In this document: piece after piece, positions 8,731 through 38,266 of the stretch
Layout: each line of letters starts with the position of its first letter
Position numbering within the stretch: the stretch's first letter is position 1
DNA from: Pectobacterium araliae
GTDB taxonomy: Bacteria > Pseudomonadota > Gammaproteobacteria > Enterobacterales > Enterobacteriaceae
Assembly: GCF_037076465.1 (NCBI RefSeq)
Contig: NZ_AP028908.1
Location: 2,976,001-3,040,000 of the forward strand
DNA: 64,000 bases
Direction of reading: 5' to 3'
Position numbers and translations under genes: made by a program
Notes under the pieces: model-generated
Told to the model about the DNA's origin: nothing
The model's database searches: none
What the model saw: only the letters and a program-made list of their open reading frames with translations

Positions 8731-8784
8731 TGATCGCTCCTTAAATGAATACCATTTTGAATACTGCCCACCTAACGCACCGCG

Positions 8785-10719: not shown

Positions 10720-10727
10720 AAGAATCC

Positions 10728-11303: not shown

Positions 11304-11320
11304 AACTGGTCTGATTTGTC
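11304..11320 (+). promoter_or_regulatory. FadR operator upstream of fadL
   Basis: AACTGGTCTGATTTGTC matches the FadR consensus AACTGGTCYGACCTGTT except for three positions in the right half. It lies about 87 bases before the fadL ATG, inside the 376-base divergent yfcZ-fadL region. That region is otherwise AT-rich with no other feature I can support. Confidence 0.75.
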
Positions 11321-11406
11321 AGGCTGAGTGCGCCCCCCTACAATGCGCGTCCCTTGTTACCTCGTGTAACAACGTTAAATAACAAGTATATAAAGAGGTT
11401 TTGGTC

Positions 11407-12708: not shown

Positions 12709-12751
12709 ATAAGAACAGACGTTCCCATTTCTACCGCATAGAACGTGATAA

Positions 12752-12782
12752 AGCAGGTAAGGCGACTTACCTGCTTTTTTTA
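12752..12782 (+). terminator. Intrinsic terminator of fadL
   Basis: AGCAGGTAAG and CTTACCTGCT form a perfect 10-pair stem with loop GCGA, followed by a run of T, 44 bases after the fadL stop. Confidence 0.88.
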
Positions 12783-12809
12783 TTGCCTGAATTTACGCGA
12801 TAACGGTAC

Positions 12810-12837
12810 AAAAAAGGCCGCTTTCGCGGCCTTTTTT
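12810..12837. terminator. Bidirectional terminator between fadL and mqo
   Basis: GGCCGC-TTTC-GCGGCC flanked by six A on the left and six T on the right gives a 12-pair stem usable from both strands. It probably serves mqo on the minus strand and backs up the fadL terminator. Confidence 0.85.
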
Positions 12838-12862
12838 GGTGTGCTCAGATTAATACCGATTA

Positions 12863-14446: not shown

Positions 14447-14754
14447 GCTTATATCTCTATTTTTATAAGTGCAGGTAGATAGAATCCCAGCCCTTCATTA
14501 ACACACGGCTGGCGACCACCCGTAACAGCGTCATTCCTATGACCTTTTTGTTAATCACCTTGCTAACAAAAAATCAGCGTGCTGACACATTTCAGCCATG
14601 ATAGACATCAGTAGTGGTTAACGACGTTGCATTATTGTTATATGGCGGCAGGAAATAAATTTTAGTAAGTAAATAAACGGTCAACAAAGTAATAACTTTT
14701 GAGAAACAAACCACAGAAGCATCATGGTAAAAGTAAGTTTAGCAGCGTTTTATA

Positions 14755-16675: not shown

Positions 16676-16681
16676 AAAGCA

Positions 16682-16703
16682 AAAGGCACCCACAGGTGCC
16701 TTT
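16682..16703 (-). terminator. Intrinsic terminator of mlaA, target of the group II intron
   Basis: AAAGGCACC and GGTGCCTTT form a perfect 9-pair stem around CACA. On the minus strand it is followed by TTGCTTT, where the intron sequence begins. Confidence 0.85.
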
Positions 16704-16726
16704 GAGATAAACGAAAATATGCTGTA

Positions 16727-17488
16727 CTACTTCGCTGAGTCGATCTCGTCGAGCGAATCTTCAATCGCAGCGGCATTCGGATTCTGCTGCGGGGTGATTT
16801 GCCCATCACTGGCAAGGAAGTCATGCCGTTGGAAGTAGGCTTCACGCATCATCAGGTACGGATCGGAAGAGTTACGCAGCAAACCGTCGGAATCCAACAG
16901 TTGCGCTCGCGTTTCTAGTCCCTCGATAGCCCACTTGCCCGCAGACATCCAGAACGTCAGATAGCTCAGCATCGGATACAGCGTATCCACCACACCACCA
17001 CCGTCTTCACGAGGTGTGACACTGCCGTAGCCAGGCACCACTACGTAAGGCCCGTATCCCACGCCATAATTACCCAGCGTGCTACCAAAACGGCGAGACT
17101 CTTCTTTCGCCAATTTAGGATTCGCCATCGACGCAACGTCAATCAGACCACCCATCCCGAGCAAGGTATTCAGGAAGAAACGGTTAAAGTGAATCATTGC
17201 TTTATATGGCTTGCCTTCAACGAAGTAGTTCACCATCGTTGCAGGTTCTTCCAGGTTGCTGAAGAAGTTTCCCAGCCCATTACGCGCGGGAGTCGGCACA
17301 TAATCGCGCCAGGCAACAGCCGCAGGACGCACCAGATAAGGATCCAGAACGTCATAGTTAAAGCTGAACATGGTACGGTTAAAGCCTTCAAGCGGATCAG
17401 AACGTCCTTCTTGAGCGCGATCCCCGGAACTGGCGCAGCCGATCAGTAACACGCTGGCAAACACCACCCCACTCAGGCGGTAATTCAT
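16727..17488 (-). CDS. mlaA: Phospholipid-binding outer-membrane lipoprotein MlaA (VacJ)
   Basis: 253 aa. The signal peptide ends in the lipobox LLIGCASS. The body shows the family motifs DPLEGFNRTMFSFNYDVLD and RRFGSTLGNYGVGYGPYVVVPGYG. MlaA works with OmpC/OmpF to remove phospholipids from the outer leaflet and hand them to MlaC. Position next to fadL and argW matches E. coli, with mqo and the intron as extra genes. The 616 bases upstream (17489-18104) hold no gene I can support. Confidence 0.95.
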   Translation of the reverse strand: MNYRLSGVVFASVLLIGCASSGDRAQEGRSDPLEGFNRTMFSFNYDVLDPYLVRPAAVAWRDYVPTPARNGLGNFFSNLEEPATMVNYFVEGKPYKAMIHFNRFFLNTLLGMGGLIDVASMANPKLAKEESRRFGSTLGNYGVGYGPYVVVPGYGSVTPREDGGGVVDTLYPMLSYLTFWMSAGKWAIEGLETRAQLLDSDGLLRNSSDPYLMMREAYFQRHDFLASDGQITPQQNPNAAAIEDSLDEIDSAK

Positions 17489-18104
17489 ATCTGTTCTCCC
17501 TGATTTATAGTGTGCTATACCCGCGACCGAAAATGGGTATTCCCACTATCAGCTCAACCTATCAAGCTGGACGATAAGGACGGGATATCGGCTAACAGTG
17601 TAACATTTTATTGCTCTATCGCTACGCTGGCTTACGTATTACTGCCTTTTCAGAGGGTTGCCATTTTTTCTTATCATGACAATACCCGCCCCAGTGTGGA
17701 GACAACACGGTAGTTCGTTGTTCCGCTCAAAGCATAGCACTTGCCAACCTAAATCAGTGAGGCATAACGCATCATCCCGCATTGTCAAAAAGACTACGCT
17801 TACCATCTAATACCGAGCGTTTAAAGATCGAGATACTGGGGCGCGTCAGCACCGCGAACCAAGTACCAACTGACCATTTGCCTTACCTACGCTGGTGGGG
17901 AATATCATCGGTGGCACCTTTATTTTCACACTCATCAGCCGCCCACCAAGTAATAAGGGTCATTTATACCGAACCACACGCCACAAGTCGCATGAAAACG
18001 AGAAAAAAGAACAGTCATAAAGCACCGATTGCCGACACTTTGAGCAAACGCACAGTTAAGTGCTTATTCTCAGAGCAAAAATGCGTATAATGGCTCCGCT
18101 TCAC

Positions 18105-18179
18105 GTCCCCGTAGTTAAACGGATATAACAAGCCCCTCCTAAGGGCTAGTTACTGGTTCGATTCCAGTCGGGGACACCA
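18105..18179 (+). tRNA. argW: tRNA-Arg (anticodon CCT), argW
   Basis: 75 bases with encoded CCA. Acceptor arm GTCCCCG pairs with CGGGGAC, T-arm is CTGGTTCGATTCCAG and the anticodon loop reads CTCCTAA. This is the E. coli argW sequence type and position (beside mlaA), a known phage integration site. Confidence 0.95.
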
Positions 18180-18358
18180 TAACCTCGCCTACGAACGTCC
18201 ACCAAAGTCTATTTTTTCCATACTATTCATCAATTTGACACAATCAGCCCGTCTACTAAAACCTACTCAGTTTTACCGACATCCACGCTATTTTGTTGGT
18301 ATCAATGTTGGCATGGTAAGTTCGATAATGCAGATACCATCACTGTGGGAGATTTTCT

Positions 18359-19500
18359 ATGGCACTCACTGAGGCAAAGGTTAGAAATGCAAAACCTGCG
18401 GAGAAGTCCGTCAAACTGACTGATGCAAATGGTATGCACCCTTTGGTTCAACCTAACGGCTCTAAATACTGGCGCTTGCAATACCGTTTGCAGGTAAGCA
18501 AAAAATGTTGGCATTAGGTGTTTATCCTGCGGTTTCTTTAACGGAAGCCCGTCGCAGAAGAGATGAAGCCAGACAACAGATTGCCAATAACATCGATCCA
18601 GGTGAAAAGAGAAAAGCGTAAAAGGTTGAAGAGAAAGGTTTACTCACCTTTGAAACCGTTGCCAGAAGCTGGCATGCCAGCAATAAAACCGGGTCTGAGG
18701 GGCACCGAACTCTGATTCTCAATAGTCTGACAACGCACGAATTCCCAATTATCGGGCAAAAAAACATCGCAACCCTTAAAACCCGCGATTTGTTGATCCC
18801 TGCTAAAAATGCAGAAAAAACCGGACATCTGGAACGGACTTCTCGCTTGCAACAACGCATCACAGCAATTATGCGTTATGCCGTTCATAATGATCTGATC
18901 GACGTTAATCCGGCTTATGATCTGGCAGGAGCCATCGCTACGGCTAAAAGTGTCCACCGCCCCGCTTTGCCTCTTGAACACATTACCGAACTGCTGACAC
19001 ATATCGAGGCATACAAAGGAAAAGGGATCACCCAATTAGCCGTTCAGCTATGTCTTCTGACCTTCATCCGCTCCAGTGAATTGAGGTTTGCGCGTTGGTC
19101 AGAGTTCGACTTCAAAAATGCGTTATGGACAATCCCTGCGAAGCGAGAGCCACTAAAAACGTTAAGTTTTCAAATCGTGGATCGAAAATGAAGACCCCGC
19201 ATTTGGTGCCATTAAGCAAGCAGGCTATTGCTATCCTCAAAGAACTCCATGCTATCAGTGGTGAACACAAACTTGTTTTTATTGGTTTTAGTCATGCAGA
19301 TAAACCCATCAGTGAAAACACCATTAACAAAGCCTTACGGGTAATGGGATATGACACGAAAACCGAAGTTTGTGGGCATGGTTTCCGCACAATGGCATGT
19401 AGTGCACTGATTGAATCAGGATTGTGGTCCAGAGACGCAGTGGAACTTCAAGTCAGATGGGCTACCTTCCTGCAAAATGTAGCCCATATCGTGCAAAAAT
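18359..19500 (+). pseudogene. P4-type tyrosine integrase, degenerate (argW-linked)
   Basis: Translation in pieces gives a whole P4-family integrase: start MALTEAKVRNAKPAEKSVKL at 18359, the DUF4102 segment LALGVYPAVSLTEARRRRDEA after a frameshift near 18500, a stop codon at about 18619 after EKRKA, the core-binding region (QQRITAIMRYAVHNDLI) and the catalytic start LTFIRSSELRFARW. A second frameshift occurs near 19185, then HLVPLSKQAI and the box II start GHGFRTMA. The final Tyr region (expected H-x-x-R ... Y) is scrambled after about 19440. Frameshifts and a stop make it nonfunctional. It lies 180 bases behind tRNA-Arg(CCT), the expected attachment site. Confidence 0.88.
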
Positions 19501-24306: not shown

Positions 24307-24643
24307 TTAAGTACACTTTCCTGTTTCTGTCTGTGATGTGTGTTGAGCTCTTTGGCGGCTCTCGTTTGCGAAAATCGAAGAGAATAAGATAGCGCAACCG
24401 CAGTATTTATTACAGCGGATGTCTGAGATAACCAAGCATAAAAAGGGTAGGTAAGGATGTCAGATGCTGCTGTATGTTTTTCACCCTAATAATGAAGAAG
24501 ATATAAAATAATGAGGAGTATAGATATACAGATCGCGCAGATTAACAAAATTGCTAACCTCTAACAATGCTATTGTTGCGATATAAAAAATTAATATGAA
24601 GTGTTTGACAGGCGCGCTCGGGAGGAGAATAATCCCTCCCGTT

Positions 24644-24719
<76 letters not shown>

Positions 24720-25171
24720 ACAATATCAATATGTTACAAATGGTTTTTTGATTTGTTATCATCTTGTTATTCCAGTTATCTATTAATTTAAATAGATCTA
24801 CTCTTTAATTCTTCCTTTTTTATTAATTCTTTTCCTTTCGTTTTCATTCTATTTTTCGACTTTTTCTACTTAATATTTTCGATGATTTCTTATGTGTCTT
24901 TTATCCATATAACCGGATTACCATTGGGAGAAAGTATAACTCAATTGGCGATGCAGTTGAAAACCATTGTTTCGCTTGGGCAAAATCGGCCTCTTATGTC
25001 CTGGCGAGTCTTGAGAAAGTGCTATGCTTAATGGATGGAATAGACTGTAGATCGTATATGATGTTACGAGTTTGCACAGGCTGTGTTCACATCCACTGGG
25101 GCAGCGCTTAGAAGTAGCTGGAGTTTCCTGGTTAGCCATAAGCAAGTTTATGCTTGATTTCGGAGGTTCAT

Positions 25172-25459
25172 ATGGGATTCGAAAAATTACTGGCTGTTAT
25201 AGAAAAAAGTCACCAGGACCCAAAATCGGTTATCTCGTTGTCTGAACTGAGCCAGGCAATCCATGAGATAATTTGTACGGAAAGTTCAAAAGAATACAAG
25301 ATAAATGAGTGCTTCACTGAACTGAGGGAGTTGGTTGATGAAAGAAAGGCACTCGCCAGGAAACAGTTTTTGGATAAGGTATTGGTTACGGAATTAACAC
25401 GATATAAAAAGAAAGAAGAGGCACTGCTTTTGAAGCTTATCAGCATTGGGAATAAATAG
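25172..25459 (+). CDS. Small unknown helical protein
   Basis: 95 aa from the ATG at 25172, chosen because CGGAGG (25161-25166) stands five bases upstream; an earlier in-frame ATG at 25154 has no such site. The protein is almost wholly helical and charged (LRELVDERKALARKQFLDKV ... YKKKEEALLLKL), without a signal peptide or membrane segment. I do not recognise the family. It is monocistronic and stands between tRNA-Lys and yecF. Confidence 0.6.
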   Translation: MGFEKLLAVIEKSHQDPKSVISLSELSQAIHEIICTESSKEYKINECFTELRELVDERKALARKQFLDKVLVTELTRYKKKEEALLLKLISIGNK

Positions 25460-25552
25460 ACGAGAGTCTCTATTTATTAAACTAAACAGGTAATGCTAAA
25501 TATCGCTACACCGCCAGATCAATCTACTGAGATGGCGGTGTGGCAAATAGTG

Positions 25553-25777
25553 CTATTTTCGGTAACTTGTTTTGATTTGTCTAATCGTGTTATCAAAAAC
25601 AGCAGCCTGCTCGGCGTCTTCCAATTGAGCAATATATCTTTCCATATTGATGATCACTTTACCGGCATCTGCCTGGCCGATTGCTTTTAATAACAGCGTA
25701 ACCATAGCTTTCAGACAGGTAACCTCATGGGCTAGGGTCTCAGCAGATGCGGTAGTAGAAAAATCTACGTTGCTCAT
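25553..25777 (-). CDS. yecF: YecF family protein (DUF2594)
   Basis: 74 aa, the family length. The pattern ETLAHEVTCLKAMVTLLLKA and IGQADAGKVIINMER closely follows E. coli YecF, which likewise lies next to uvrY. Function unknown. The 637 bases between it and uvrY (25778-26414) are AT-rich and show no gene; they should include the uvrY promoter. Confidence 0.85.
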   Translation of the reverse strand: MSNVDFSTTASAETLAHEVTCLKAMVTLLLKAIGQADAGKVIINMERYIAQLEDAEQAAVFDNTIRQIKTSYRK

Positions 25778-26414
25778 GTTTTCTCCTCAACAAGAAAAAG
25801 GTGTTTTTCTTCGCCTGCTGCGGCGTTACCGCTGACACAACAGGCAGAATTAGATAGTGAGGAGTATAACATAAAGCATATTGTAGATTGATATTATTCG
25901 CGGATAACACCGTTTTAGTGACTGTTTTTTATGCATTTAATTTATATAAATAGCGTTTATATTTTGGATTCCATTTTGTGGAAAAAGCTATAGATGTGTT
26001 GTGCTTAATACATAAGATATTCACTATGGACGCTGTTCTCTGAATATATTATTTGTATAATATCGTTGTAGGCGATGATGTGATGCTTAATCACAAGTTG
26101 CTTACAATAGTGATTTTTTATTGACATTCAAGATATAAAGCCAATTGCATGCCACCTGGTTTGTTTTCTACACATCTTGTATCATTAAACGGTTTATACT
26201 GCGTAGCGTATTTGAAATGTTAAGAGTGTGATCAACATGCGCCTTCAGGATAGTGATATATTGTTATGATCGGGAATATGCTTTATTCCTTCTCGGCATA
26301 TTTTAAAATACATATTCATATAAGTCAGTGTTCATTATTTTTTGAAACCAACGTAGTATCACCTGCAAGCAACTTTTCATGTAAGTGTTACTCCCTTTTT
26401 TGGAGAATTATTCT

Positions 26415-27071
26415 TTGATTAGCGTTTTTCTTGTTGATGACCATGAACTGGTGCGGGCAGGGATACGACGCATTCTTGACGATATCAAAGGTCTGAAAGT
26501 GGTTGGTGAGGCGTGTTGTGGTGAGGATGCGGTCAAATGGTGTCGAAGCAATGATGTTGATGTTGTTTTGATGGACATGAGCATGCCGGGTATCGGTGGG
26601 CTTGAAGCGACGCGTAAGATCCTACGATTTACGCCAGACATCAAAGTTATTATGCTCACTATTTATACCGAGAACCCATTGCCCGCTAAGGTGATGCAGG
26701 CGGGTGCAGCGGGATATGTTAGTAAAGCGGCTGCCCCTCAGGAAGTGATCTCCGCCATTCGGGCGGTGCATGCAGGCAAGCGGTATATCGCCTCTGATAT
26801 TGCTCAACAAATGGCATTGAGCCAGTTGGAACCGCAAACGGACGCGCCGCTGGAGTGTTTGTCTGAACGCGAATTACAGATTATGCTAATGATAACCAAG
26901 GGTCAGAAAGTGACTGAAATCTCAGATCAGCTCAATCTTAGCCCCAAAACAGTGAACAGCTATCGTTACCGTATGTTTAGCAAACTGAATATCAACGGTG
27001 ATGTTGAGTTGACGCATCTGGCTATCAAGCATGGGCTTTTTACCGCGGAGACATTGTTAAGTAGTGAGTGA
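26415..27071 (+). CDS. uvrY: Response regulator UvrY (GacA/ExpA)
   Basis: 218 aa from the TTG at 26415. The frame is open to a GTG at 26385, but TGGAG (26401-26405) precedes the TTG and the alignment with E. coli UvrY ([15 protein letters not shown]) begins here ([15 protein letters not shown]). The phosphoacceptor Asp lies in [12 protein letters not shown]. The LuxR-type helix-turn-helix is [12 protein letters not shown] ... [17 protein letters not shown]. It is the partner of sensor BarA/GacS; phosphorylated UvrY activates csrB/rsmB and, in soft-rot bacteria, extracellular enzyme production. Its end overlaps uvrC by 8 bases. Confidence 0.94.
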
Positions 27072-28896
27072 GTGTTTCGATGCTTCGGCATTTTTAAAAA
27101 CGGTAACGAGCCAGCCTGGGGTCTACCGGATGTATGATGTCGGCAATACGGTCATCTATGTCGGTAAGGCAAAAGACTTAAAAAAACGACTTGCCAGCTA
27201 TTTTCGCAGTCATGTCGCCAGCCGTAAAACCGAGGCGTTGGTCAAAAGCATCAATCATATTGATGTCACGATTACGCATACAGAAACTGAAGCCTTGCTG
27301 CTGGAACACAACTACATCAAGCTTTATCAGCCGCGTTATAACGTGTTGTTACGCGATGATAAATCCTATCCCATGATTTTTCTGAGTGGTGATGCTCATC
27401 CACGTCTGACCGTTCATCGTGGTGCCAAGCATGCAAAGGGCGAATACTTTGGCCCTTTCCCTAACGGCAATGCCGTGCGTGAAACGTTACTATTGCTGCA
27501 AAAATTGTTCCCGGTGCGTCAGTGTGAAAATAGCGTCTATCGCAACCGCTCTCGTCCTTGTTTGCAATATCAAATTGGCCGCTGCCTTGGGCCTTGCGTT
27601 AGCGGTTTGGTTAGCGAAGAAGATTATCAGCAGCAGGTTGAGTATGTTCGCCTGTTCTTGTCCGGTAAAGATCAGCAAGTACTGAATCAACTCATCTCCC
27701 GGATGGAGGTGGCGAGTCGTGACCTGCGTTTTGAAGATGCTGCACGGATACGCGATCAGATCCAAGCGGTTCGTCGGGTGACGGAAAAACAATTTGTTTC
27801 CGGTGACGGCGAAGATTTGGACGTCATCAGCGTCGCTTTCGATGCTGGCATGGCCTGCGTATATGTCCTTTTCATCCGACAAGGGAAGGTACTTGGCAGC
27901 CGGAGCTATTTCCCCAAGGTACCTAGCGGTACGGAATTGGGTGAAGTCGTACAAACTTTTGTCGGGCAATTCTATTTGCAAGGAAGCGTAGGTCGAACGC
28001 TCCCTACAGAAATTCTGCTTGATTTCACTCTGCCCGATAAAGATTTGCTGACGGAGTCTCTAACGGCAGTCGCGGGAAGAAAAGTACAAATTCAGACAAA
28101 ACCCCGCGGCGATCGTGCTCGTTATTTAAAATTGGCGCGAACGAATGCGGCTACAGCGCTGGTCACGAAATTATCTCAGCAATCCACTATTCATCAGCGT
28201 TTGGCAGCATTAGCCAACGTCTTGCAGTTACCAGAAATCCATCGAATGGAATGTTTTGACATCAGTCATACTATGGGGGAACAAACTGTGGCATCTTGCG
28301 TGGTATTTGATGCTAATGGTCCTCTACGTTCGGAATATCGGCGCTATAATATCAGTGGTATTACGCCCGGTGATGACTATGCTGCTATGGCGCAAGTTCT
28401 CCAGCGTCGATATGGTAAAGCGTTAGATGACAGTAAAATACCCGATGTGATTGTGATCGATGGTGGGAAAGGGCAACTCGGCCAGGCTCAGACTGTGTTT
28501 GACTCCTTGCAGGTATCATGGGATAAAAATAAGCCTCTGCTGCTTGGCGTTGCGAAAGGCAGCGATCGTAAAGCTGGCTTAGAAACGCTGTTTTTTGAGG
28601 CTACCGGTGAGGGTATGGCTTTGCCAGCTGATTCCCCAGCGCTGCATGTGATCCAGCACATTCGCGATGATTCGCATGACCATGCGATTGGCGGGCATCG
28701 CAAGAAGCGAGCAAAAGTAAAAAATACCAGTACGCTGGAGCTTATTGAAGGTGTCGGTCCTAAACGTCGTCAGACCCTGCTGAAATACATGGGTGGGTTA
28801 CAGCCTTTGATGAATGCCAGCATTGAGGAGATTGAAAATGTTCCAGGAATTTCGCATGCATTGGCAGAAAAGATCTTCCATGCATTGAAACACTAG
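27064..28896 (+). CDS. uvrC: Excinuclease ABC subunit C
   Basis: 610 aa, the E. coli length. N-terminal GIY-YIG nuclease (PGVYRMYD ... [14 protein letters not shown]), a central UVR motif ([20 protein letters not shown]), the RNase H-like 5'-incision domain (MECFDISH ... [12 protein letters not shown] ... [10 protein letters not shown]) and a C-terminal helix-hairpin-helix pair ([33 protein letters not shown]). It makes both incisions around UV and bulky lesions. GTG start, co-transcribed with uvrY. Confidence 0.97.
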
Positions 28897-28954
28897 GGAC
28901 AATGTAGCAACATACTCCTAGTATCCACTCCAGCCAGATAGTTACCTAAGCGCT

Positions 28955-29503
28955 ATGCAATTTAATATACCGACGTTGCTTACCCTGTTTCGTGTTGCTC
29001 TTATTCCGTTTTTCGTGCTGGCGTTTTATCTTCCATTCGCCTGGGCACCGCTACTTTGCTCGTTGATCTTTGTGTTTGCTGCCGTAACGGATTGGTTTGA
29101 TGGTTTCCTTGCCCGCCGCTGGAAGCAGACTACGCGTTTTGGTGCCTTCCTTGATCCTGTTGCGGATAAAGTGATGGTGGCTGTCGCGTTGGTGTTGGTT
29201 GCGGAATACTATCATTCCTGGTGGATTACGCTGCCCACCGCAACGATGATCGCGCGGGAAATCATTATTTCGGCATTACGCGAATGGATGGCTGAAATCG
29301 GCAAAAGAAGTAGCGTGGCCGTATCGTGGATAGGGAAGGTTAAAACCACGGCTCAGATGATGGCGCTTTTTGCTTTGCTATGGCGTCCAGAACGCATTGT
29401 TGAAGGTATTGGCGTTGTTGCGTTGTACATAGCGGCTGTGCTGACTTTCTGGTCCATGTTTCAATATTTAAACGCCGCGCGTCACGATTTGCTTGAACCT
29501 TGA
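28955..29503 (+). CDS. pgsA: CDP-diacylglycerol-glycerol-3-phosphate 3-phosphatidyltransferase
   Basis: 182 aa. The CDP-alcohol phosphotransferase motif [27 protein letters not shown] matches D-x2-DG-x2-AR-x8-G-x3-D-x3-D. It has several membrane helices. It commits CDP-diacylglycerol to phosphatidylglycerol and cardiolipin synthesis. Order uvrY-uvrC-pgsA-glyW-cysT-leuZ is that of E. coli. Confidence 0.96.
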
Positions 29504-29642
29504 TCGAACCGACGTAAAAACCAGCAAACGAGTGCGGTTGCTTGATAATTCTGTTGACTCATCGCGTCAGGTCAGTAGAATGCACCGCATCAACAGCAAC
29601 GCTGGTTTGTAAGAAGTTAGAGAAATCAGCATGTTCTGTGCT

Positions 29643-29718
<76 letters not shown>

Positions 29719-29769
29719 ATTTAAAGCATCGGCATTTGCGGATGTTGGTTACTAAGACCTGAATATTTT

Positions 29770-29843
29770 GGCGCGTTAACAAAGCGGTTATGTAGCGGAT
29801 TGCAAATCCGTCTAGTCCGGTTCGACTCCGGAACGCGCCTCCA
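29770..29843 (+). tRNA. cysT: tRNA-Cys (anticodon GCA)
   Basis: 74 bases, acceptor GGCGCGT / ACGCGCC, anticodon loop TTGCAAA, T-arm CCGGTTCGACTCCGG, CCA encoded. Confidence 0.96.
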
Positions 29844-29851
29844 ATATTTAA

Positions 29852-29938
29852 GCCCAGGTGGTGAAATCGGTAGACACAAGGGATTTAAAATCCCTCGGCG
29901 TTCGCGCTGTGCGGGTTCAAGTCCCGCCCTGGGCACCA
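29852..29938 (+). tRNA. leuZ: tRNA-Leu (anticodon TAA)
   Basis: 87 bases with a long variable arm. Acceptor GCCCAGG / CCTGGGC, anticodon stem GGGAT-TTAAAAT-CCC giving TAA, CCA encoded. It is followed by an integrase remnant, so it has served as an attachment site. Confidence 0.96.
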
Positions 29939-29949
29939 TTGATAAATCA

Positions 29950-29976
29950 ATAGACGTCACCGACGTCTATTTTTTT
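29950..29976 (+). terminator. Terminator of the glyW-cysT-leuZ operon
   Basis: ATAGACGTC / GACGTCTAT, a perfect 9-pair stem with loop ACC, then seven T, 11 bases after leuZ. Confidence 0.9.
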
Positions 29977-30091
29977 GCCTAAAACCCACGGTTTTACTGG
30001 CTTGTCCTTCATTCCATACTCTCCCAACGTCAACGCAATTCAACCTACATCAACTTGCTGGTGAGTATAATGGTCGGAATCTCATGCCGAA

Positions 30092-30208
30092 CGTATACTG
30101 AAAAGCCTGAGCGACAGTATTTTCCCCGCCATCGATGGCACTCATATCGCGGATCTGAAAACACGTGATTTACTGGCACCGATCAGAAACGTTGAACGTT
30201 CAGGACGG
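30092..30208 (+). pseudogene. P4-type integrase internal fragment (leuZ-linked)
   Basis: About 39 codons read RILKSLSDSIFPAIDGTHIA then DLKTRDLLAPIRNVERSGR, the core-binding domain of P4-family integrases (same place as IFPDIGKRPVAEIKPLEML in the intact copy at 62197-63411). The start (~120 codons) and the whole catalytic domain are gone. Confidence 0.78.
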
Positions 30209-30219
30209 CGACGGTCAGT

Positions 30220-30257
<38 letters not shown>

Positions 30258-30426
30258 TGTTGTCACCCCCCTGCTGATTTAGGCAGCCTGTTTTTCCCGC
30301 TCTGGATTCAGTACACCCTACATCTCGATAGTGACTGAAATAGCAAAGAACATATACTTATAACCATGAATAACCTTATAATATCAAAAAGATTTATTCA
30401 CTATTTGTAAGGAATGTGTATTTATT

Positions 30427-31053
30427 ATGAAACGGAGTTATATAAAAAGCGTCGTTTTGCCTTTGCTTTTCCTCCCTCTCTCCAGTGGGGTATATGCACA
30501 AGACTTTCCCACTTTTGTGACAGATTTCACCAATGTGTTGCAAAAAAGTAAATTATCACAAAAAGACTATAACCAATTTATTGAACTCACTGGCTCCTAT
30601 TTTATTCCAGCTAACGATGATGTAAGCATAGCGAAAAAAGATAAAAGCAGTTATAAAAACAACGAAGTAATGCCAAAGCTTGAATCTGACTCCAGCTTTA
30701 TTTTTAATGGTTCAAATGGGAAAATGGCTTTTATTTCATTTCTGCAAGAAATAAAAAACCAACCGCAGTCAGAAAAATATTTTGAAAAATCCTACACGGG
30801 CGCAGGATCGGTTTTTGTCATGAATTACTATACGCTATCACCGGGCATCATTAATATCCAGATGGATATCGTTTCTCCGCCTGGCCTCAAAGGAATCGTC
30901 ATGAACCTACTTAACGAAAGGGAATCAGAACTTAAACAAGAAGCTGGCGAGCGAGTTTATATTTACCAATTTAAAAAAATAAATGAGACCTATAAGATGG
31001 TCGGTGCCAACTCATATCCATCTTCAGATAAACGAATCTGCATGTCCTGCTAA
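30427..31053 (+). CDS. Unknown secreted protein, first gene of an accessory operon
   Basis: 208 aa. Clear signal peptide (KRSYIKSVVLPLLFLPLSSG, cut after VYA-QDF), so periplasmic or exported. The rest is mixed alpha/beta, rich in Lys, Ser and Asn, and contains only two cysteines, both in the last six residues (RICMSC). I do not recognise a domain. AAGGA stands 16-12 bases before the ATG. The next gene starts 23 bases after its stop. Coding sequence is markedly AT-rich compared with the core genes, and it follows an integrase scrap behind leuZ, which indicates horizontal origin. Confidence 0.72.
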   Translation: MKRSYIKSVVLPLLFLPLSSGVYAQDFPTFVTDFTNVLQKSKLSQKDYNQFIELTGSYFIPANDDVSIAKKDKSSYKNNEVMPKLESDSSFIFNGSNGKMAFISFLQEIKNQPQSEKYFEKSYTGAGSVFVMNYYTLSPGIINIQMDIVSPPGLKGIVMNLLNERESELKQEAGERVYIYQFKKINETYKMVGANSYPSSDKRICMSC

Positions 31054-31075
31054 CGTGATTTCAATGGAATTGAAA

Positions 31076-31873
31076 ATGATAAAAATCATAATAAAATCCC
31101 TATTATTAATAATGCTTTCATCACACTATGTTAATGCAAATAATCTTGTGTGCCGTAGCCCTCTCGTCATTCAGTCGTTAATCAAAGAAGATCAAGAGAA
31201 AGCGCAATCCATCACCGATCGTGTATCTTTGGAAACAATTAAAAAAGTAGAATTTGAATATGACATCATTATCACAAAGCTTAAAACAAAAAATAACCTA
31301 AGCTGCTTTGGCAAAGCCAAGATAAAAATCCCATCCGGTGTGTCAAATTTTTTAAAATATTATCCTATTCTAGAAAATGGGGATCCTAAAGCAAAAAATA
31401 TTTACCTTTTCAATCTTCACCACTATAGAAAAGGCGATGAATACATCGCATTGGATCAGGTTTATTATAATGTTCACATTGCTGATAACCAGCAAGAAAC
31501 CAATATTATGTATCCACACGATGAGCCAATCTCGCTCACACTTTATGCCCTGTCTTGGTTTCAGGAAAATGCGGCAAGGCTGGAGGATCAATCACCTCGT
31601 TTTAAATATAATAAAGCACTCGTAGAGTTCATAGAGACTGATAGGGCATTAAATACTTACTGGAATAACCTACCTGATTATATTAAAGGGCAGATGAAAG
31701 AGGATTCACGGCAGTGGATAAAAAATAAAAATAAACAGTGCGGCGCGATAGAGACCGTCGCGAGTAAAAACCGCTCACTGGAAGATCAAGCAAAAATTTA
31801 TACCTGCCAACAACAAATGACCAGGGAAAGGCTGGTACAGCTTGGATTGACCGAAAACAAGGACAAGAAATGA
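31076..31873 (+). CDS. Secreted protein with C-terminal LprI/DUF1311-like domain (copy A)
   Basis: 265 aa from the ATG at 31076, chosen because it begins a signal peptide (MIKIIIKSLLLIMLSSHYVNA) and has GGAA just upstream; the frame is open further back into the previous gene. The mature part begins NNLVCRSPLVIQSLI and has an early Cys and a later FGKAKIKIP segment paired with Cys. The last ~75 residues (LPDYIKGQMKEDSRQWIKNK, QCGAIETVAS, YTCQQQMTRERL) have the W-x4-K-x2-QC ... Y-x-C-x6-R pattern of LprI-type (DUF1311) lysozyme-inhibitor domains. Overlaps the next gene by 4 bases (ATGA). Confidence 0.72.
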   Translation: MIKIIIKSLLLIMLSSHYVNANNLVCRSPLVIQSLIKEDQEKAQSITDRVSLETIKKVEFEYDIIITKLKTKNNLSCFGKAKIKIPSGVSNFLKYYPILENGDPKAKNIYLFNLHHYRKGDEYIALDQVYYNVHIADNQQETNIMYPHDEPISLTLYALSWFQENAARLEDQSPRFKYNKALVEFIETDRALNTYWNNLPDYIKGQMKEDSRQWIKNKNKQCGAIETVASKNRSLEDQAKIYTCQQQMTRERLVQLGLTENKDKK

Positions 31874-32673
31874 AAAAATGCCTCTATGTCATGATTGGAA
31901 TTATCCTTACTTGCACATCAGCGTATGCGAAGGATGATTTTCAATGCAGCGATCCCAAAGCGGTTGACGTTGTTAAAAACACATTTTCCGACCGCGCAAA
32001 ATCACTGTTCTCTAAGTCTCCCTCTCTGTCTGTTGATAGCGTGAGCGTGATTTATTCAAAAATATCCACTCAGCCACGTTGGGGAACCGCATTCTCGTGC
32101 AGTCTACGAGTCGAAATCCCCGTAAATCAGGCGATCGTTGACATCATTCTTAATGAAGACGATCTTATGTACACAAAAGATGAAAGGGATAAAATCGGCA
32201 ATAACATTTTCACTAAAACGGGTGAAAGCAAAAATAATAGGCTCAGCGATAACAAAATTGTCATTCCGTACTTTGCCTACGATCTCAGCGTTATTGATAA
32301 CGGAAAAGAAATAAAAGTAGAAAAAAAATCCTATGATGCCCTATCCAGAGCAATTTATGCCGTAGCCTGGCTCAGTGAAAACGCCGAAAAAATCACAAAA
32401 ACCGCACAAGATAAAACGCTTGAAAATGAAAAGGAACAGTATCTTTTCTTTTTCACCGACGTCTATGGAATATTGGAAGATGCACCTAAAGACATAAAAC
32501 GTAAATTCCACGCTTCTCAAGAGACATGGGTTGAAGAAAGAAATAAAAAATGCGGTAATGTCGAGCTATTAGAGGCGAATAACATTTTAATTAAAGAACA
32601 GATTCATGCTTATCGCTGCCATAATGCAACGATGAGTGAACAAATATCAAGTTTAGATCCAAGCGCGGGGTGA
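31870..32673 (+). CDS. Secreted protein with C-terminal LprI/DUF1311-like domain (copy B)
   Basis: 267 aa, signal peptide MKKCLYVMIGIILTCTSAYA. It is a diverged paralogue of the preceding gene with the same architecture: early FQCSDPKAVDVVKNTFSDRA, a middle block ending in YAVAWLSENA (copy A: YALSWFQENA), and a C-terminal part with ETWVEERNKKCG and HAYRCHNATMSEQI. Cysteines keep their spacing. The paralogues share the operon, translationally coupled. The role might be inhibition of a lytic enzyme or envelope protection; that rests only on the weak LprI likeness. Confidence 0.72.
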   Translation: MKKCLYVMIGIILTCTSAYAKDDFQCSDPKAVDVVKNTFSDRAKSLFSKSPSLSVDSVSVIYSKISTQPRWGTAFSCSLRVEIPVNQAIVDIILNEDDLMYTKDERDKIGNNIFTKTGESKNNRLSDNKIVIPYFAYDLSVIDNGKEIKVEKKSYDALSRAIYAVAWLSENAEKITKTAQDKTLENEKEQYLFFFTDVYGILEDAPKDIKRKFHASQETWVEERNKKCGNVELLEANNILIKEQIHAYRCHNATMSEQISSLDPSAG

Positions 32674-33098
32674 TAAACCACGCCTAAAATACGTTACTGC
32701 ATGCCTATTTATTATTCAGAAATAGGTTATTCCGCAAGGGATTTATCAAGTTAAAGAACGCGACAATAGGAAGAGGTATGTGTAACCATACCTCTCTTAT
32801 CATCATTATTTTTAGTAGTGAAAAATATTGAGAATGCCAGAGCTGTTTTCTTTCCTGAAAGCATATTAATCCTTGAGTAAATAATAATCCATTTAAACCC
32901 AATACCATCAATAGCTACAAAAAATATACTCATGATGAAAATGTAAGCAATTCCACTTTTAACAAGAAAGGAGAAGAAATGAAAATGTTTTATTTTCAAC
33001 AATAAAGATGAATATATTTAGGCTGCAAAACAATGTAAGGGGCTTATATATAACAATAATAATATAGCAATAAGAAAGCCCCTACCACGTTAGGATGT

Positions 33099-33860
33099 TT
33101 ACTCTCCAAACACGTCATAACGCTGATTTTCAGCATTAAAGCGATATTCCAACAGAATATCACCACCGCCGTGGGAATAGCAGTTCAGCATGATACTGCG
33201 ATTATCTTCGCCATTTTCAATATTCATGTAAACTGGAGTCATGAAAAAGCCGAACTGGCATTGTTGAAAATCAGGTTTAAGAAGCTGATCGACGTTGCCG
33301 TTCTTCTTGTTAACCGCCTTGATCCCCTCAACAACCATCCCTGTGTCGCTGTTTTGATACACGCCGATGAAACTGTGGGTTGCCGTTTGCCCCCAGAAAG
33401 GAATATCGATCTGCCCTTCTACCCTGGCTGGTTGCTCGCTATCGTCAAAGGATGCGATACGCCGTAAGCTAACATCATAACGTGCTTTCCCGTTCGACCA
33501 CTCGCCGCGGAGTTCTTCTCCCACTTCCGTTAATTTAAACGGGCAATGTGTCATATCCATGTCAGACTTAACGCCCTGAACGATATATTTATCATAATCC
33601 TGAGGAGTATGAATTTCGCAGATCTCGAGTGACGTTTCCGCGAGTCGCCCATACAGCGGGATCGGCGCTCGGTATTTATCGTAAAAGTAGCTTCCCAACA
33701 GGTTCTTATCTTGATCAATACTGTATTTCTGCAATGAAAAATGCACCGGATAAGGCCCAATATGGCCTTCGTAATTGCTCACAACATACCAGCCAGCATG
33801 CGCTCCCCATGCTGCCGTCCACAGTCCACAGGCTATTAAGGTTGATACCGCTGCTCTCAT
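33099..33860 (-). CDS. Unknown periplasmic protein
   Basis: 253 aa from the ATG at 33860, preceded by AAGGTGA; the frame opens 8 codons earlier. Signal peptide MRAAVSTLIACGLWTAAWGA-HAG. The mature protein is beta-rich (GWYVVSNYEGHIGPYPVHFS ... LLGSYFYDKYRAPIPLYGRL ... VEGQIDIPFWGQTATHSFIG) and has four Cys that could form disulfides. I do not recognise the family; the pattern 'G-x-YP-V-x-F-S ... GSYFYDK' resembles small secreted proteins that describe a substrate-binding barrel, but nothing specific can be named. The 425 bases between this gene and the operon on its left show no supported gene. Confidence 0.7.
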   Translation of the reverse strand: MRAAVSTLIACGLWTAAWGAHAGWYVVSNYEGHIGPYPVHFSLQKYSIDQDKNLLGSYFYDKYRAPIPLYGRLAETSLEICEIHTPQDYDKYIVQGVKSDMDMTHCPFKLTEVGEELRGEWSNGKARYDVSLRRIASFDDSEQPARVEGQIDIPFWGQTATHSFIGVYQNSDTGMVVEGIKAVNKKNGNVDQLLKPDFQQCQFGFFMTPVYMNIENGEDNRSIMLNCYSHGGGDILLEYRFNAENQRYDVFGE

Positions 33861-33984
33861 ACATTCACCTTGTCTACCCGTCATACTTCAAGCTACTGAT
33901 GTGTTGGCTTTTCTGCAACTCGCGTTGTGTTTTAGCGTGTCAATCATGAAACCGAATCATTCAAAAACGGCTTAGCGTATCAGG

Positions 33985-34251
33985 CTAATCATGGTGGCAG
34001 CAGGGACAGATTTCTACCTCAGAAACCGTCATGGCTGTTGTTCCATGGCAATCCCATTCGACACGTACAGGCAGACCTTCAGGCTCCGAGTGGTGCAAAT
34101 ACTTATTGACGGGACTTTCCGTCATACCACTAACCACCTCAGTAGCGATAAGCGCATCACCAACAAAAATACGGGCTGTCGCTTGTGATGTTTCGCGCGT
34201 TTCACCAGATTGCCGATACAAATAGTTAACCGTGAGTTTAATGCTGGGCAT
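33985..34251 (-). CDS. Small unknown protein with Cys/His tail
   Basis: 88 aa. The ATG at 34251 begins MPSIKLTVNYLYRQSGETRE. No signal peptide. Beta-rich, ending in EVEICPCCHHD, a possible metal-binding tail. It stands alone 125 bases upstream of the periplasmic protein gene on the same strand. The following 520 bases (34252-34775) are AT-rich and carry no gene. Moderate support only, from codon usage and a sensible protein composition. Confidence 0.5.
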   Translation of the reverse strand: MPSIKLTVNYLYRQSGETRETSQATARIFVGDALIATEVVSGMTESPVNKYLHHSEPEGLPVRVEWDCHGTTAMTVSEVEICPCCHHD

Positions 34252-34775
34252 AGCACTTCTTAACAGGAAAAAAACCAGGAAAACAGTGTATCGCGTTCAC
34301 CCGCGCTTGTAGAGCACATACATAGCAAGCGGTGTCACCAATCCATGCTAATACCATGATAGTTTTCTATTTTTTTTAAAATAGAGATCTCTCGTCACAT
34401 AAAACCACACAATTAGTAATCAAAAAGTTAAATTTTATGCCTTTTAGATATTAATGAAGCAGAAAAAACAGCCGATAGACTTTTTGATAGGGTATTTTTT
34501 AATGCAGTTGCATTTTGCAGGAATAGTGTTTGGCATAAATACTGTTTTACATTAACCGTGTTTTGATTGAACCATGTCGTTAAGGTCATTGTATTGAATA
34601 ATAGGAAATTATACTCATCGGATTGATGCCTCTTCCAAGGAAGATAATTAACTTACTTATGTTGGCGGCACAAGTTTTAACAATGGTGCATTAACGCATG
34701 TGGTTTTAACACACTGAAGTAACTCTCTGGTAAAACCATTGCCAGCATTAAATAGCTATAAGAAGGAGTTATACT

Positions 34776-35315
34776 GTGGTGATTCCAGATATTCAAATCG
34801 TGAGTTCAACAACCCCGGCGACCATGCCTCCCATTGGCGCAGCTGCCAACCCAACTGTCGTTGCAGCCATCAGCCCGGGGAATAAAACCGACACATCAGC
34901 AAATTCCGACTCGCAAAATATGCCGAGTTCGAACGAGAGCACGAAGGTCACACTGTCGTCTCAAAAGAAGCGTGCCACTGAAGAGAACAATGTCACGCCA
35001 CCTGAACAGATTAAGGCACAGCAGAAAGCAGCCACTGAATATTCTCTGGCGATGACCGGTATTCCGTTGTACAACGGTAAGCTCATTTCCGTAGTTAAAT
35101 ACCCAGATGGCAATTCTGAAATGTTTGATGCCTTTACAGGACAGCGCATCACACAAGAAGACCTAGCACTCATGGGCGCACTTCATAGTTCTGGTAGCGA
35201 ACAGGTATTACATTTTGAGAGTAAGACATCATATAGCAATTTGTCTGCGGCCGAAGTTTATCAGCAGATTCAGGAAATGCTGCATGGTTCCGGCGATCCG
35301 GAAGCACTGTCTTAA
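34776..35315 (+). CDS. Unknown protein with Ser/Thr/Pro-rich N-terminus
   Basis: 179 aa, GTG start preceded by AAGGAG (34762-34767). Residues 1-~85 are low-complexity and hydrophilic, rich in S, T, P, N and Q. Residues 90-179 form a compact block (SLAMTGIPLYNGKLISVVKY ... MFDAFTGQRITQEDLALMGA). No signal peptide, no membrane helix. The disordered head plus small domain resembles secreted effector-type or regulatory proteins, but I recognise no family. Confidence 0.6.
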   Translation: MVIPDIQIVSSTTPATMPPIGAAANPTVVAAISPGNKTDTSANSDSQNMPSSNESTKVTLSSQKKRATEENNVTPPEQIKAQQKAATEYSLAMTGIPLYNGKLISVVKYPDGNSEMFDAFTGQRITQEDLALMGALHSSGSEQVLHFESKTSYSNLSAAEVYQQIQEMLHGSGDPEALS

Positions 35316-35419
35316 TAACAAATCGATGCCAAGACAAATAAACGCATTGCCCTGGCATTAAAGAATAATATAACGCTATCTTAATAATGTAGGATGGCGA
35401 TTTAATGGAAGCTGGCCGA

Positions 35420-35992
35420 TTAACGATTAGCAATGAGCGCTTGCGAAAATTCAGTTAATTTTGTCAGGCCATATTCCCAGGGACCAAACCCCGCTTCTGC
35501 ATTAATATGCCCCGCCTCGCCGACATCAACTAACTCACTGTTCCACGCCTGCGCCCAGTATTGGGCGCGAGTAAAACTCATCAGCGGATCGTTATGGCTG
35601 GCAAATGTCAGCGCAGGAACCGGCAGCGGTGCTGCCTGAATGCGATCGTCGATTTCAAAGCGCAGGGGCTCGGCAGGAGCCACCAGCATCACACCGGCGA
35701 TCCCTTCCTGACCCTGTTGCACAATATGGCAGGAAGCCAGTGCGCCAAAGCTGTGACCGATCAGAATCACAGGCTGTGTACAGATGCTGATCTCACGGCG
35801 GATCGCCAGAACCCAGCGGTCTAGATCGGCCTGATACCATTCCCGCTGGCGTATACGGTGCCAGTGAGGAAAACGCCGTTCCCAATGGCTTTGCCAGTGT
35901 TCGTCATCGCTGTCTCGCAATCCCGGCACCAACACCATCGTTAGCTGCTGGCTCACTTCAGCAAGCCGTCGATCGATTTCTGTTGTCTGCAT
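35420..35992 (-). CDS. RBBP9/YdeN-type serine hydrolase (alpha/beta hydrolase)
   Basis: 190 aa. Nucleophile elbow GHSFGA, oxyanion strand VLVPGLRDSDDEHWQ, acid at ASHNDPLM and His in GEAGHINAEAGFG, the arrangement of the small RBBP9 family. Substrate unknown. Monocistronic, 69 bases from the end of dbpA on the same strand. Confidence 0.85.
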   Translation of the reverse strand: MQTTEIDRRLAEVSQQLTMVLVPGLRDSDDEHWQSHWERRFPHWHRIRQREWYQADLDRWVLAIRREISICTQPVILIGHSFGALASCHIVQQGQEGIAGVMLVAPAEPLRFEIDDRIQAAPLPVPALTFASHNDPLMSFTRAQYWAQAWNSELVDVGEAGHINAEAGFGPWEYGLTKLTEFSQALIANR

Positions 35993-36061
35993 CCGCCCTT
36001 AACACTCCTGTCTGTTACCCAGTGACGCTCATCCTACCTAGTCTGATCTATCAAACACCGG

Positions 36062-37444
36062 TTACTTTAACAATCTGGCCTTACAGCTTTTCCCTTTGAT
36101 TTTGCCTTTCTGGAGCTGTTGCAAGGCACGTTTAGCGCTGGCTTTACGAATAGCCACATAAGCATGCAAAGGAAACATATCAATTTTCCCGACTTCTGCC
36201 GCAGTTAATCCCGCATCACCCGTTAACGCGCCGAGAATATCGCCGGGGCGGATTTTAGCTTTTCTGCCGCCATCAATGCACAACGTCATCATCTCAGGTT
36301 CGAGCGCAACGTCACCACTGCGGCTAATCTCATCCACCGGCGTCCATTTAATGCGCATACCAAGATAGTCTTCAATCAGATTAGCACGATTCATTTCCTG
36401 TGGCGTGCATAGGCTGACAGCCAGCCCCTGCGTACCCGCGCGGCCGGTTCTGCCAATACGATGAACGTGGACTTCAGGATCGAAAGCCAGCTCAAAATTC
36501 ACCACCAGCGCCAGCTCTTTGATATCGAGGCCGCGAGCCGCAACATCGGTTGCAACCAACACACGGCAACTGCGATTAGCAAAACGTACCAGCACCTGAT
36601 CGCGATCGCGCTGTTCCAGATCGCCATGCAGCGCCGATACACTAATCCCGCGCATGTCCAGCGCATCAAATACGCTCTGACAATCACGCTTCGTGTTGCA
36701 GAACACCACGCAGGATGCTGGCTGGTAATGGCTCAGAATAGCAATCAACAGCGGCAGGCGTTGTTCTTTCGTCGTCTCATAGAAACGTTGTTCAATGGCC
36801 GACTCTTTCACATCATCTGCAATCTCGAAACGTTGCGGCTGACGCTGAACACGTGCGCTGATCTGCTCGATCTCTTCCGGGTACGTGGCGGAAAAGAGTA
36901 GGGTTTGACGATCGGACGGCATATAGGAAATCACATCATCAATCGCGTCAGTAAAGCCCATGTCCAGCATGCGATCCGCTTCATCCAGCACCAGCACTTT
37001 CAGGCTATCCAGAGACAGTGACTGCTTGCGTAAATGATCCTGAATACGCCCTGGTGTCCCGACGACGATATGTGGTGCGTGAACCAGCGAGTCGAGCTGC
37101 TGACCCATCGGCTGACCACCGCATAGCGTAAGAATCTTAATGTTTTGCGCAAAACGCGCCAGACGACGCAGCTCTTTGCTGACCTGATCCGCCAGTTCAC
37201 GCGTCGGGCACAGCACCAGTGCCTGCGTGGTAAAGTCGCTCACGACGATACGATCCAGCAGGCCAATACCAAATGCCGCCGTTTTACCGCTACCGGTTTT
37301 CGCCTTGGCCCGTACGTCCGCGCCGCTCAGAACGGCTGGCAACGTCGCCGCCTGAACTGGCGTCATGTCGGTATAGCCCAGTTCGTTAAGATTGGATAAC
37401 TGCTCTGCCGGCAGCGCGAGGGAAGAAAAAGAGGTTGTACTCAC
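36062..37444 (-). CDS. dbpA: ATP-dependent RNA helicase DbpA
   Basis: 460 aa from the GTG at 37444, which matches the start of E. coli DbpA; the frame is open 24 codons further. Motifs: Q-motif LGYTDMTPVQAA, Walker A AKTGSGKT, PTRELA, TPGR, DEAD in VLDEADRML, SAT, HRIGRTGRAG. The C-terminal RNA-binding domain (KIRPGDILGALTGDAGL ... GKIKGKSCKARLLK) targets hairpin 92 of 23S rRNA during large-subunit assembly. Confidence 0.95.
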   Translation of the reverse strand: MSTTSFSSLALPAEQLSNLNELGYTDMTPVQAATLPAVLSGADVRAKAKTGSGKTAAFGIGLLDRIVVSDFTTQALVLCPTRELADQVSKELRRLARFAQNIKILTLCGGQPMGQQLDSLVHAPHIVVGTPGRIQDHLRKQSLSLDSLKVLVLDEADRMLDMGFTDAIDDVISYMPSDRQTLLFSATYPEEIEQISARVQRQPQRFEIADDVKESAIEQRFYETTKEQRLPLLIAILSHYQPASCVVFCNTKRDCQSVFDALDMRGISVSALHGDLEQRDRDQVLVRFANRSCRVLVATDVAARGLDIKELALVVNFELAFDPEVHVHRIGRTGRAGTQGLAVSLCTPQEMNRANLIEDYLGMRIKWTPVDEISRSGDVALEPEMMTLCIDGGRKAKIRPGDILGALTGDAGLTAAEVGKIDMFPLHAYVAIRKASAKRALQQLQKGKIKGKSCKARLLK

Positions 37445-37564
37445 AGTGATTACTCTACCAAGGACAAAATAACGGAAGGTGACGCCGAGCCAGAGAACGG
37501 CGCAGATATGTCGCAATCATAGCAGAGTTCGCCATCGTTGACCGATTTACCTCCCGTCCCCCGA

Positions 37565-38266
37565 CTAAAACAAAGAGACGAATCCTTTATTCACCAAAAA
37601 ACCCTGTCCTTCAGGTGATAAAAGGTAGTTCGCCAGCCGTCGTGCTTCACGTCGGGCAGGTTTCATGCTGGCCAACATGTGCTCGGCATCAATCCGATAG
37701 GGATCGGGTAAATGCAGGCGTTCGATGCGATCAAAGAGTGAAACGCATAATCTAATAGCCACAGCAGCAGCGCCTGATTTTGCACATCAAGCGCCGCCAT
37801 CGGTTCATCCAGCATCAGTGTCTGACACTCGGATGACAATGCCCTTGCGATTAACACAAGCTGCCGCTGTCCACCGGACAATACGCTAAATTCACATTCC
37901 GCAAGGGAGGCAATTCCCAGCAGACGCAGCGCATTCTGAGCCACGCGGATATCATGCGCAGAAGGCATGGTAAACAGCCGAACACGCGCGGCACGCCCCA
38001 TCAGTACCCTATCCAAACGTTATAAGAAAACGCTGGGGTAAATATCTGTGGAACAAAACCAATGCGCCTCTCACGCCGAATCGTCCCAGAAAGCGGCGAT
38101 AAGTGGCCCAGTAAGGTATTCAGCAGCGTGGTTTCCCTCTGCCATTCGCCCCCAAAATTGCCGTAACCTCCCCTTCCCAACAGCACAGGTTCAACGGTGG
38201 AAAAATGCCCCACCCTTGTTGGTAGCCATACACCAGTTCTTCTGTCGATAACCTGATAACAGGCAT
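37565..38266 (-). pseudogene. Ruined FecE-type ABC ATPase fused to the tail of a substrate-binding protein
   Basis: From the ATG at 38266 the frame reads MPVIRLSTEELVYGYQQGW ... TAILGANGRGK and is then shifted by one base exactly in Walker A. The next frame gives TTLLNTLLGHLSPLSGTIRR ... QIFTPAFSYNV, and after another shift near 38016 RVLMGRAARVRLFTMPSA ... FSVLSGGQRQL ... MLDEPMAALDVQNQA. The ATPase then breaks off and joins the last ~50 codons of a periplasmic binding protein (ARRLANYLLSPEGQGFLVNK, stop at 37565). FecE-like ATPases serve iron-siderophore, B12 or oxyanion uptake. Frameshifts and a deletion make the locus nonfunctional. Just upstream (38267-38400) a hydrophobic scrap could be a permease remnant. 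Confidence 0.8.

Follow-up and report, generated by a model that had tools for sequence, protein, structure and literature searches.

A three-gene operon for secreted proteins lies at positions 30427-32673 of the Pectobacterium araliae DNA analysed here (the window, 64,000 nucleotides long, corresponding to positions 2976001-3040000 of a 4.66-Mb chromosome contig, NZ_AP028908.1). Its second and third genes, g2 and g3, can be assigned, as diverged members, to the family of long LprI proteins to which Salmonella ScwA belongs, and most of the relatives examined are encoded within type VI secretion system (T6SS) clusters. The reading that we favour, and to which we would give about half of our confidence, is that the products of g1, g2 and g3 constitute an orphan immunity system that would act in the periplasm against incoming peptidoglycan hydrolases.

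All three genes are read on the forward strand. Gene g1 (30427-31053; 208 amino acids) encodes a secreted protein with a C-terminal C-x-x-C, g2 (31076-31873; 265 amino acids) a long LprI protein of the ScwA type with cysteines at 26, 77, 222 and 244, and g3 (31870-32673; 267 amino acids) a diverged paralogue of the same type, with cysteines 26, 77, 228 and 250 in its mature part. Each protein starts with a Sec-type signal peptide, as judged by eye. The original prediction had described three signal-peptide genes in tight succession, and open reading frames (ORFs) are indeed found at these places, with g2 and g3 overlapping by 4 bases. The gap between the g1 stop (31053) and the g2 start (31076) measures 22 bases rather than the 23 claimed. 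Comparison of 30001-30426 with other species by blastn delimited an upstream region conserved across species at 30325-30426 on the same strand. A promoter and terminator scan gave no more matches than were obtained with shuffled sequences.

The g2 and g3 proteins are 21% identical to each other (E 8e-13), indicating that they are paralogues, as had been proposed. Residues 185-256 of g2 score above the gathering threshold of the Pfam LprI model (PF07007; 24.3 versus 22 bits), whereas g3 stays below it (14.0 bits, E 0.066), so that the relatedness of g3 depends on a longer profile. Such a profile was made from 17 relatives outside Pectobacterium (three from Salmonella, two of those identical), proteins of a family of 257-284 amino acids with which g2 and g3 align over most of their length. 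It gave 105.2 bits for g2 (model positions 73-268 of 272) and 80.8 bits for g3 (74-268); the best of 5000 shuffled decoys reached 15.1 bits and the three other LprI proteins of the same genome at most 14.2 bits. As both matches begin near model position 73, the equivalence of the first cysteine rests on multiple alignments. Four cysteines are invariant in 13 g2 copies, 13 g3 copies and all 17 relatives, and 22 residues always separate the last two. LprI similarity in the C-terminal part, on which the original prediction had staked its case, is thus present in g2 by the Pfam model and in g3 through the longer profile. The genome's other LprI proteins (L051, L052 and L053) fall outside the ScwA-type family; one is short and two have their LprI part near the N-terminus.

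The AlphaFold model of g2 (predicted local distance difference test, pLDDT, 84.7) depicts an alpha+beta N-domain followed by four helices, and its comparison with solved structures gave no convincing match. Structure prediction, advised for all three proteins, was thus usable for g2 and not for g1, whose model (pLDDT 45) is too poor for fold comparison. A search for the MliC domain (PF09864) returned no line at E up to 10 for g1, g2 or g3. The tail of g2 resembles PHROG 5094 (E 5.8e-7), and a tblastn search of 50,697 phage records found two unannotated short records, similar to the tail only (about 33% identity). The g1 protein had been said to contain no recognised domain, and this stands: no Pfam match exceeded its cut-off (best line, E 0.024), and searches of NCBIfam, PHROGs and PADLOC at E 1 found nothing. 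All its named relatives are from Pectobacterium (20 matches; four of the others are nameless and one is the window's own). Comparison of g1 with DUF3828/Tai3 yielded no Pfam line and, with two members, a profile-comparison probability of 0.2%, the g1 model being poor.

To our knowledge, ScwA is the sole long-LprI protein to have been studied. The main text of the report on it describes ScwA (SL1344_0490) as a Salmonella periplasmic protein with an LprI domain that controls the levels of MltD, and proposes that it is a regulator; ScwA conferred no lysozyme resistance, and its authors credited lysozyme inhibition to the MliC domain (PMC7933661). Neither "type VI" nor "T6SS" occurs in that main text, so that the regulator interpretation was made without the T6SS context. 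Like g2 and g3, ScwA is about 270 residues long, has a signal peptide, an N-domain followed by a C-terminal LprI part and four cysteines (C30, C100, C237 and C259; PMC7933661), and is not a lipoprotein by sequence. The spacing of 22 residues between the last two cysteines is shared by ScwA, g2 and the Salmonella protein L131, which has the exact ScwA cysteine positions and is encoded between copA and a TraB/GumN gene. To call the architecture of g2 and g3 unusual, or the system undescribed, was therefore too strong, since this layout is that of ScwA and of many unstudied enterobacterial proteins. The Pectobacterium proteins differ from ScwA in that they are only about 18-22% identical to it, lack a segment of some 15 residues in the N-domain and form a tandem pair accompanied by a third gene. 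Their genes belong to a tRNA-Arg(CCT) site (see below) whereas scwA lies between copA and ybaP.

The setting of the relatives speaks for an immunity function. When 295 genomes of the family were searched with g2, matches were obtained in eight genomes outside Pectobacterium, and in six of these the gene lies within a T6SS cluster. Of the two others, one takes the scwA position, flanked by copA and ybaP (L044), and one adjoins a transporter gene (L041, genome G092). With all searches combined, 13 of 18 lineages are T6SS-linked (L042/L088, L043, L045, L046/L084, L047/L081/L083, L048/L080, L079, L082, L085, L086, L087, L129 and L130), the remaining five being Salmonella L044/L131/L133, L041, L089, L132 and L090. 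This proportion leans upward, because five of the six query sequences in the wider genome scan were themselves T6SS-linked; six of eight is the less biased figure. Loci duplicated within a genome and near-identical strains were counted once, one of three Rahnella plasmids was examined, and L086, in which two ORFs make up the LprI gene, was included; the count covers neither the tail-only matches of family f3, nor short LprI proteins, nor 81 proteins without gene context. T6SS-linked members occur in Erwinia, Kosakonia, Serratia rubidaea, Cedecea, Citrobacter, Pluralibacter, Yersinia pekkanenii and Rahnella. The order clpV-LprI-vgrG is found in nine lineages (as fragments in L048 and L129); vgrG adjoins the LprI gene, with no clpV detected, in L046 and L082, and in L087 and L130 the gene stands between tssE and vasL. 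Downstream proteins score above Pfam cut-offs as a glucosaminidase (L042) and a GH19 enzyme (L045), and other loci have related proteins below the cut-offs. From their position and domains, these downstream proteins are putative T6SS effectors. The LprI genes of these clusters resemble g2 and g3 in their homology over most of the length and in their cysteines; unlike them, the Pectobacterium copies are paired behind g1, with no T6SS gene found nearby. A separate trio of LprI-tailed proteins of 282-292 amino acids, encoded close to one another, was seen in L092, from a genome of another bacterial family, f3 (G505; 718-1596, 4216-5076 and 5167-6015), and no T6SS gene was recognised around it.

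Within Pectobacterium the three genes behave as a unit. Matches to g1, g2 and g3 were found in 14, 14 and 15, respectively, of the 25 genomes searched, and all three genes are intact in 13, the window's own included. Their spacing (22 and -4) is identical in all 13 intact copies, 12 others and the window, in keeping with the single operon originally proposed. In genome G020 the three genes are all interrupted by stops, in G019 a remnant comprises the last 28 codons of g3 (about 80 bases, 95% identity), and the remaining 10 genomes gave no operon match at E 0.001. G019 and G020 do not enter the counts of spacing, cysteines or substitution ratios. No intact g1, g2 or g3 occurs without its two partners in the 25 genomes, so the dispersal that the original prediction would have taken as damaging was not seen. 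The set thus comes or goes as a block, G019 and G020 exemplifying its loss. Median ratios of nonsynonymous to synonymous substitution rates (dN/dS) are 0.16, 0.17 and 0.19 for g1, g2 and g3 (12 pairs each); purifying selection acts on all three genes. Five flanking genes have lower medians (0.074, 0.084, 0.077, 0.032 and 0.035 from 12, 12, 12, 12 and 8 pairs). Pairwise distances of g1 correlate well with those of g2 (r 0.76); the agreement is lower for g2 and g3 (0.53) and poor for g1 and g3 (0.27); g3 of G024, at 69% identity, is an outlier.

A role against lytic enzymes, offered originally as a guess, gains support from the T6SS setting of the relatives. A T6SS immunity role has been put forward for an LprI protein of Salmonella Dublin (146 amino acids) and for LprI proteins encoded beside WHIX effectors (PMC8867033, PMC12135965), and orphan immunity genes have been described in Vibrio cholerae (PMC8632748). 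Since relatives stand beside T6SS weapons and none was found near the Pectobacterium operon, orphan immunity appears to be the best reading. The g2 and g3 proteins would be exported, probably disulfide-bonded, and would inhibit peptidoglycan hydrolases by binding to them in the periplasm; the stand-alone operon would thereby shield the cell from lysozyme-like T6SS effectors of competing enterobacteria in rotting plant tissue. We infer the periplasmic location, the disulfides, the binding of hydrolases, the protection and any role of g1 from comparison of sequences and gene neighbourhoods. Further observations agree with orphan immunity. In Escherichia coli BA92 (L129) tssL, tssH, vgrG and icmF are fragmented, tssE being annotated as intact, and the LprI gene, between the tssH and vgrG fragments, outlasts this broken T6SS in intact form. 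In addition, the dN/dS values of g1-g3 exceed those of the flanking genes, and 22 of the 25 Pectobacterium genomes possess the T6SS core gene IcmF. The broken cluster of BA92 (8362-17082) also keeps a Tox-REase-5/Imm52 pair.

Several points weigh against orphan immunity. Around the operon, in the window and at 14 other Pectobacterium loci, no homologue of a T6SS component or effector was found at E 1e-3 (queries: one representative each of ClpV, VgrG and IcmF, two effectors, and the genome's own VgrG). In the T6SS clusters of other genera the LprI gene is fixed beside clpV or vgrG while the effectors vary and bring secreted downstream genes of their own, so that the LprI protein, instead of being a cognate immunity protein, may counter a part common to those effectors or act as an accessory factor. 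With only about 18-24% identity between g2/g3 and the T6SS-linked relatives, a change of function is possible, and the nearest branch (g2, g3 and L041 of G092) has no T6SS-linked member. The weak correlation of distances between g1 and g3 implies that the three proteins need not form one complex. Values of dN/dS below 0.2 are unlike those of an arms race. Finally, the published regulator role of ScwA points in another direction.

That role suggests the strongest alternative, in which g2 and g3 would tune the amount or activity of the cell's own lytic transglycosylases in the periplasm and have no part in resisting foreign enzymes. The shared layout and cysteine pattern argue for it, given that ScwA controls MltD without conferring lysozyme resistance (PMC7933661, main text); so does the dN/dS of 0.16-0.19 across the 13 intact copies, which would suit a regular cellular role, and so do the five lineages out of 18, Salmonella included, in which no T6SS link is seen. 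A housekeeping regulator would, however, hardly be expected to be absent or broken in 12 of 25 genomes, as the operon is; T6SS clusters house most of the relatives examined, and the ScwA study was framed without that context. We consider such tuning unlikely, if still the most serious competitor.

It is improbable, though less easily set aside than the accessory role taken up below, that g2 and g3 protect from hydrolases of the host, be they lysozyme-like chitinases of the plant or lysozymes of insects. GH19 enzymes are found in plants too, a point in favour of this idea. LprI of Mycobacterium tuberculosis, whose LprI domain is shared with g2 (above the Pfam cut-off), has been reported to inhibit lysozyme (cited in PMC8867033, PMC12135965 and PMC7933661). 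It is, however, a lipoprotein with an MliC domain (PMC7933661), and g2 and g3 show neither feature. LZI, an LprI-type gene that marks blackleg-causing P. brasiliense, has been proposed to counter plant lysozyme (PMC10459533); like g2 and g3, it encodes a predicted secreted LprI protein, and in the same genus. The published gene nevertheless differs from g2 and g3: its primers and probe have at least 7 mismatches to g1-g3, and the probe was found in none of the 25 Pectobacterium genomes at up to 3 mismatches. Because ScwA did not confer lysozyme resistance (PMC7933661, main text), plain inhibition of host lysozyme, which the original prediction had listed among the candidate roles, is weakened; the domain credited with such inhibition, MliC, shows no Pfam line in g2 or g3. 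That relatives are linked to T6SS also makes bacterial enzymes a likelier target than those of the host. Among the matches listed in the open-licence literature, nothing concerned this operon or a link between ScwA and T6SS.

Least probable of all, and by a wide measure doubtful, is that the LprI protein aids local wall remodelling as an accessory T6SS factor, the operon serving the cell's own T6SS in trans: the LprI gene does keep its place beside clpV and vgrG whatever putative effector comes next, and the T6SS core gene IcmF is present in 22 of the 25 Pectobacterium genomes, the window's own included, but the operon lies about 380 kb from its own T6SS, the ClpV of that system is only 44% identical to the ClpV of LprI-bearing clusters, no IcmF match was obtained in genome G018, whose operon is intact, and the LprI gene survives where the T6SS is broken.

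The operon had been placed behind leuZ and an integrase scrap, as a horizontally acquired unit. Both features are present, leuZ (tRNA-Leu(TAA)) at 29852-29938 and, beside it, a remnant at about 30069-30207 that we take to be an integrase; acquisition at leuZ did not hold up. Where leuZ shares a contig with the operon or what is left of it, as it does in 12 other genomes, a distance of 170 kb to 1.5 Mb separates the two; G007 and G017 have them on separate contigs. At eight of the 12 other loci with an intact operon, g1 is preceded at a distance of 0.6-3.7 kb by a tRNA-Arg(CCT) gene, which also occurs at the degraded locus of G020 and the deleted locus of G019; the other four intact loci showed no tRNA-Arg in the 20 kb of sequence examined. 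In the window this gene is at 18105-18179 on the forward strand, followed at 18360-19500 by a degraded integrase, presumably of the P4 type, and window positions 17994-18361 are homologous to the upstream flank of the operon in G018. These comparisons identify tRNA-Arg(CCT) as the home site of the operon. It is now separated from g1 by about 12 kb that include tRNA-Gly-Cys-Leu and genes that we take to be uvrC and pgsA. The leuZ block of G018, with its integrase, matches window positions 28606-30207; homology stops at 30207, and that to the operon's own upstream region begins at 30325. The break places the leuZ-side scrap with the leuZ locus, as its integrase, and indicates that a rearrangement brought leuZ and the operon together here, with the junction between 30207 and 30325. 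A short CAAGGT tandem repeat (30222-30257) falls within this junction. The two integrase remnants are related to each other and bracket the block of about 12 kb, which is found elsewhere in other species; recombination between them may thus have caused the rearrangement.

It seems conceivable that the operon arrived with an element at tRNA-Arg; its AT-richness and patchy presence are compatible with this and fall short of proof. Over the operon (30250-33249; windows up to 32750) the GC content ranges from 33 to 42%, compared with 47-51% directly upstream (26500-30249), and varies from 35 to 57% downstream (33000-38000). The AT-rich DNA originally reported is therefore genuine, and other stretches of the window are equally AT-rich, as at 24500-26499 (35-40%). 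The assignment to an island at leuZ is corrected to a home site at tRNA-Arg(CCT).

Downstream of the operon, on the reverse strand, 33099-33884 encodes a secreted protein of 261 amino acids that is present in 24 of 25 Pectobacterium genomes and has no Pfam match. Homologues with 39-44% identity directly follow GH19-like proteins, candidate T6SS effectors, in genomes G058, G185 and G239; these GH19-like proteins score below the Pfam GH19 cut-off and can be aligned to the GH19 protein of L045. In G188 a homologue is part of an array with a VgrG3-like protein, and in G048 (where the contig ends just past the gene), G059 and G277 the homologue has no such neighbour; G084 is outside this comparison. 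The gene is likely an orphan immunity gene in its own right, and its homologues' position after GH19-like proteins suggests, as an independent hint, that the operon has an immunity function too. At some loci the operon and the 33099 orthologue are separated by a gene for NPP1, a necrosis-inducing protein (L027, 14204-15001; L033, 12546-13385), and in five operon-less genomes such a gene adjoins that orthologue. The window has no ORF of NPP1 size there; its positions 32751-33002 resemble an ORF found at that place in other species.

Taken together, these elements could be joined in one wider proposal, which we regard as tentative and clearly less probable than orphan immunity of the operon taken by itself. 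The ScwA/long-LprI family would provide T6SS immunity against peptidoglycan hydrolases; g1-g2-g3 would be a weapon-less shield at a tRNA-Arg site, beside the unrelated orphan immunity gene at 33099-33884; and ScwA itself would serve as orphan immunity, its reported influence on the cell's own hydrolases being a by-product. The main text of the ScwA report described no protection from lysozyme and proposed a regulator (PMC7933661), and gene neighbourhoods offer a concrete alternative. If true, this would account for the coming and going of such genes and for the intact copy in a broken T6SS cluster, and it would help to explain which bacteria can coexist in rotting plant tissue.

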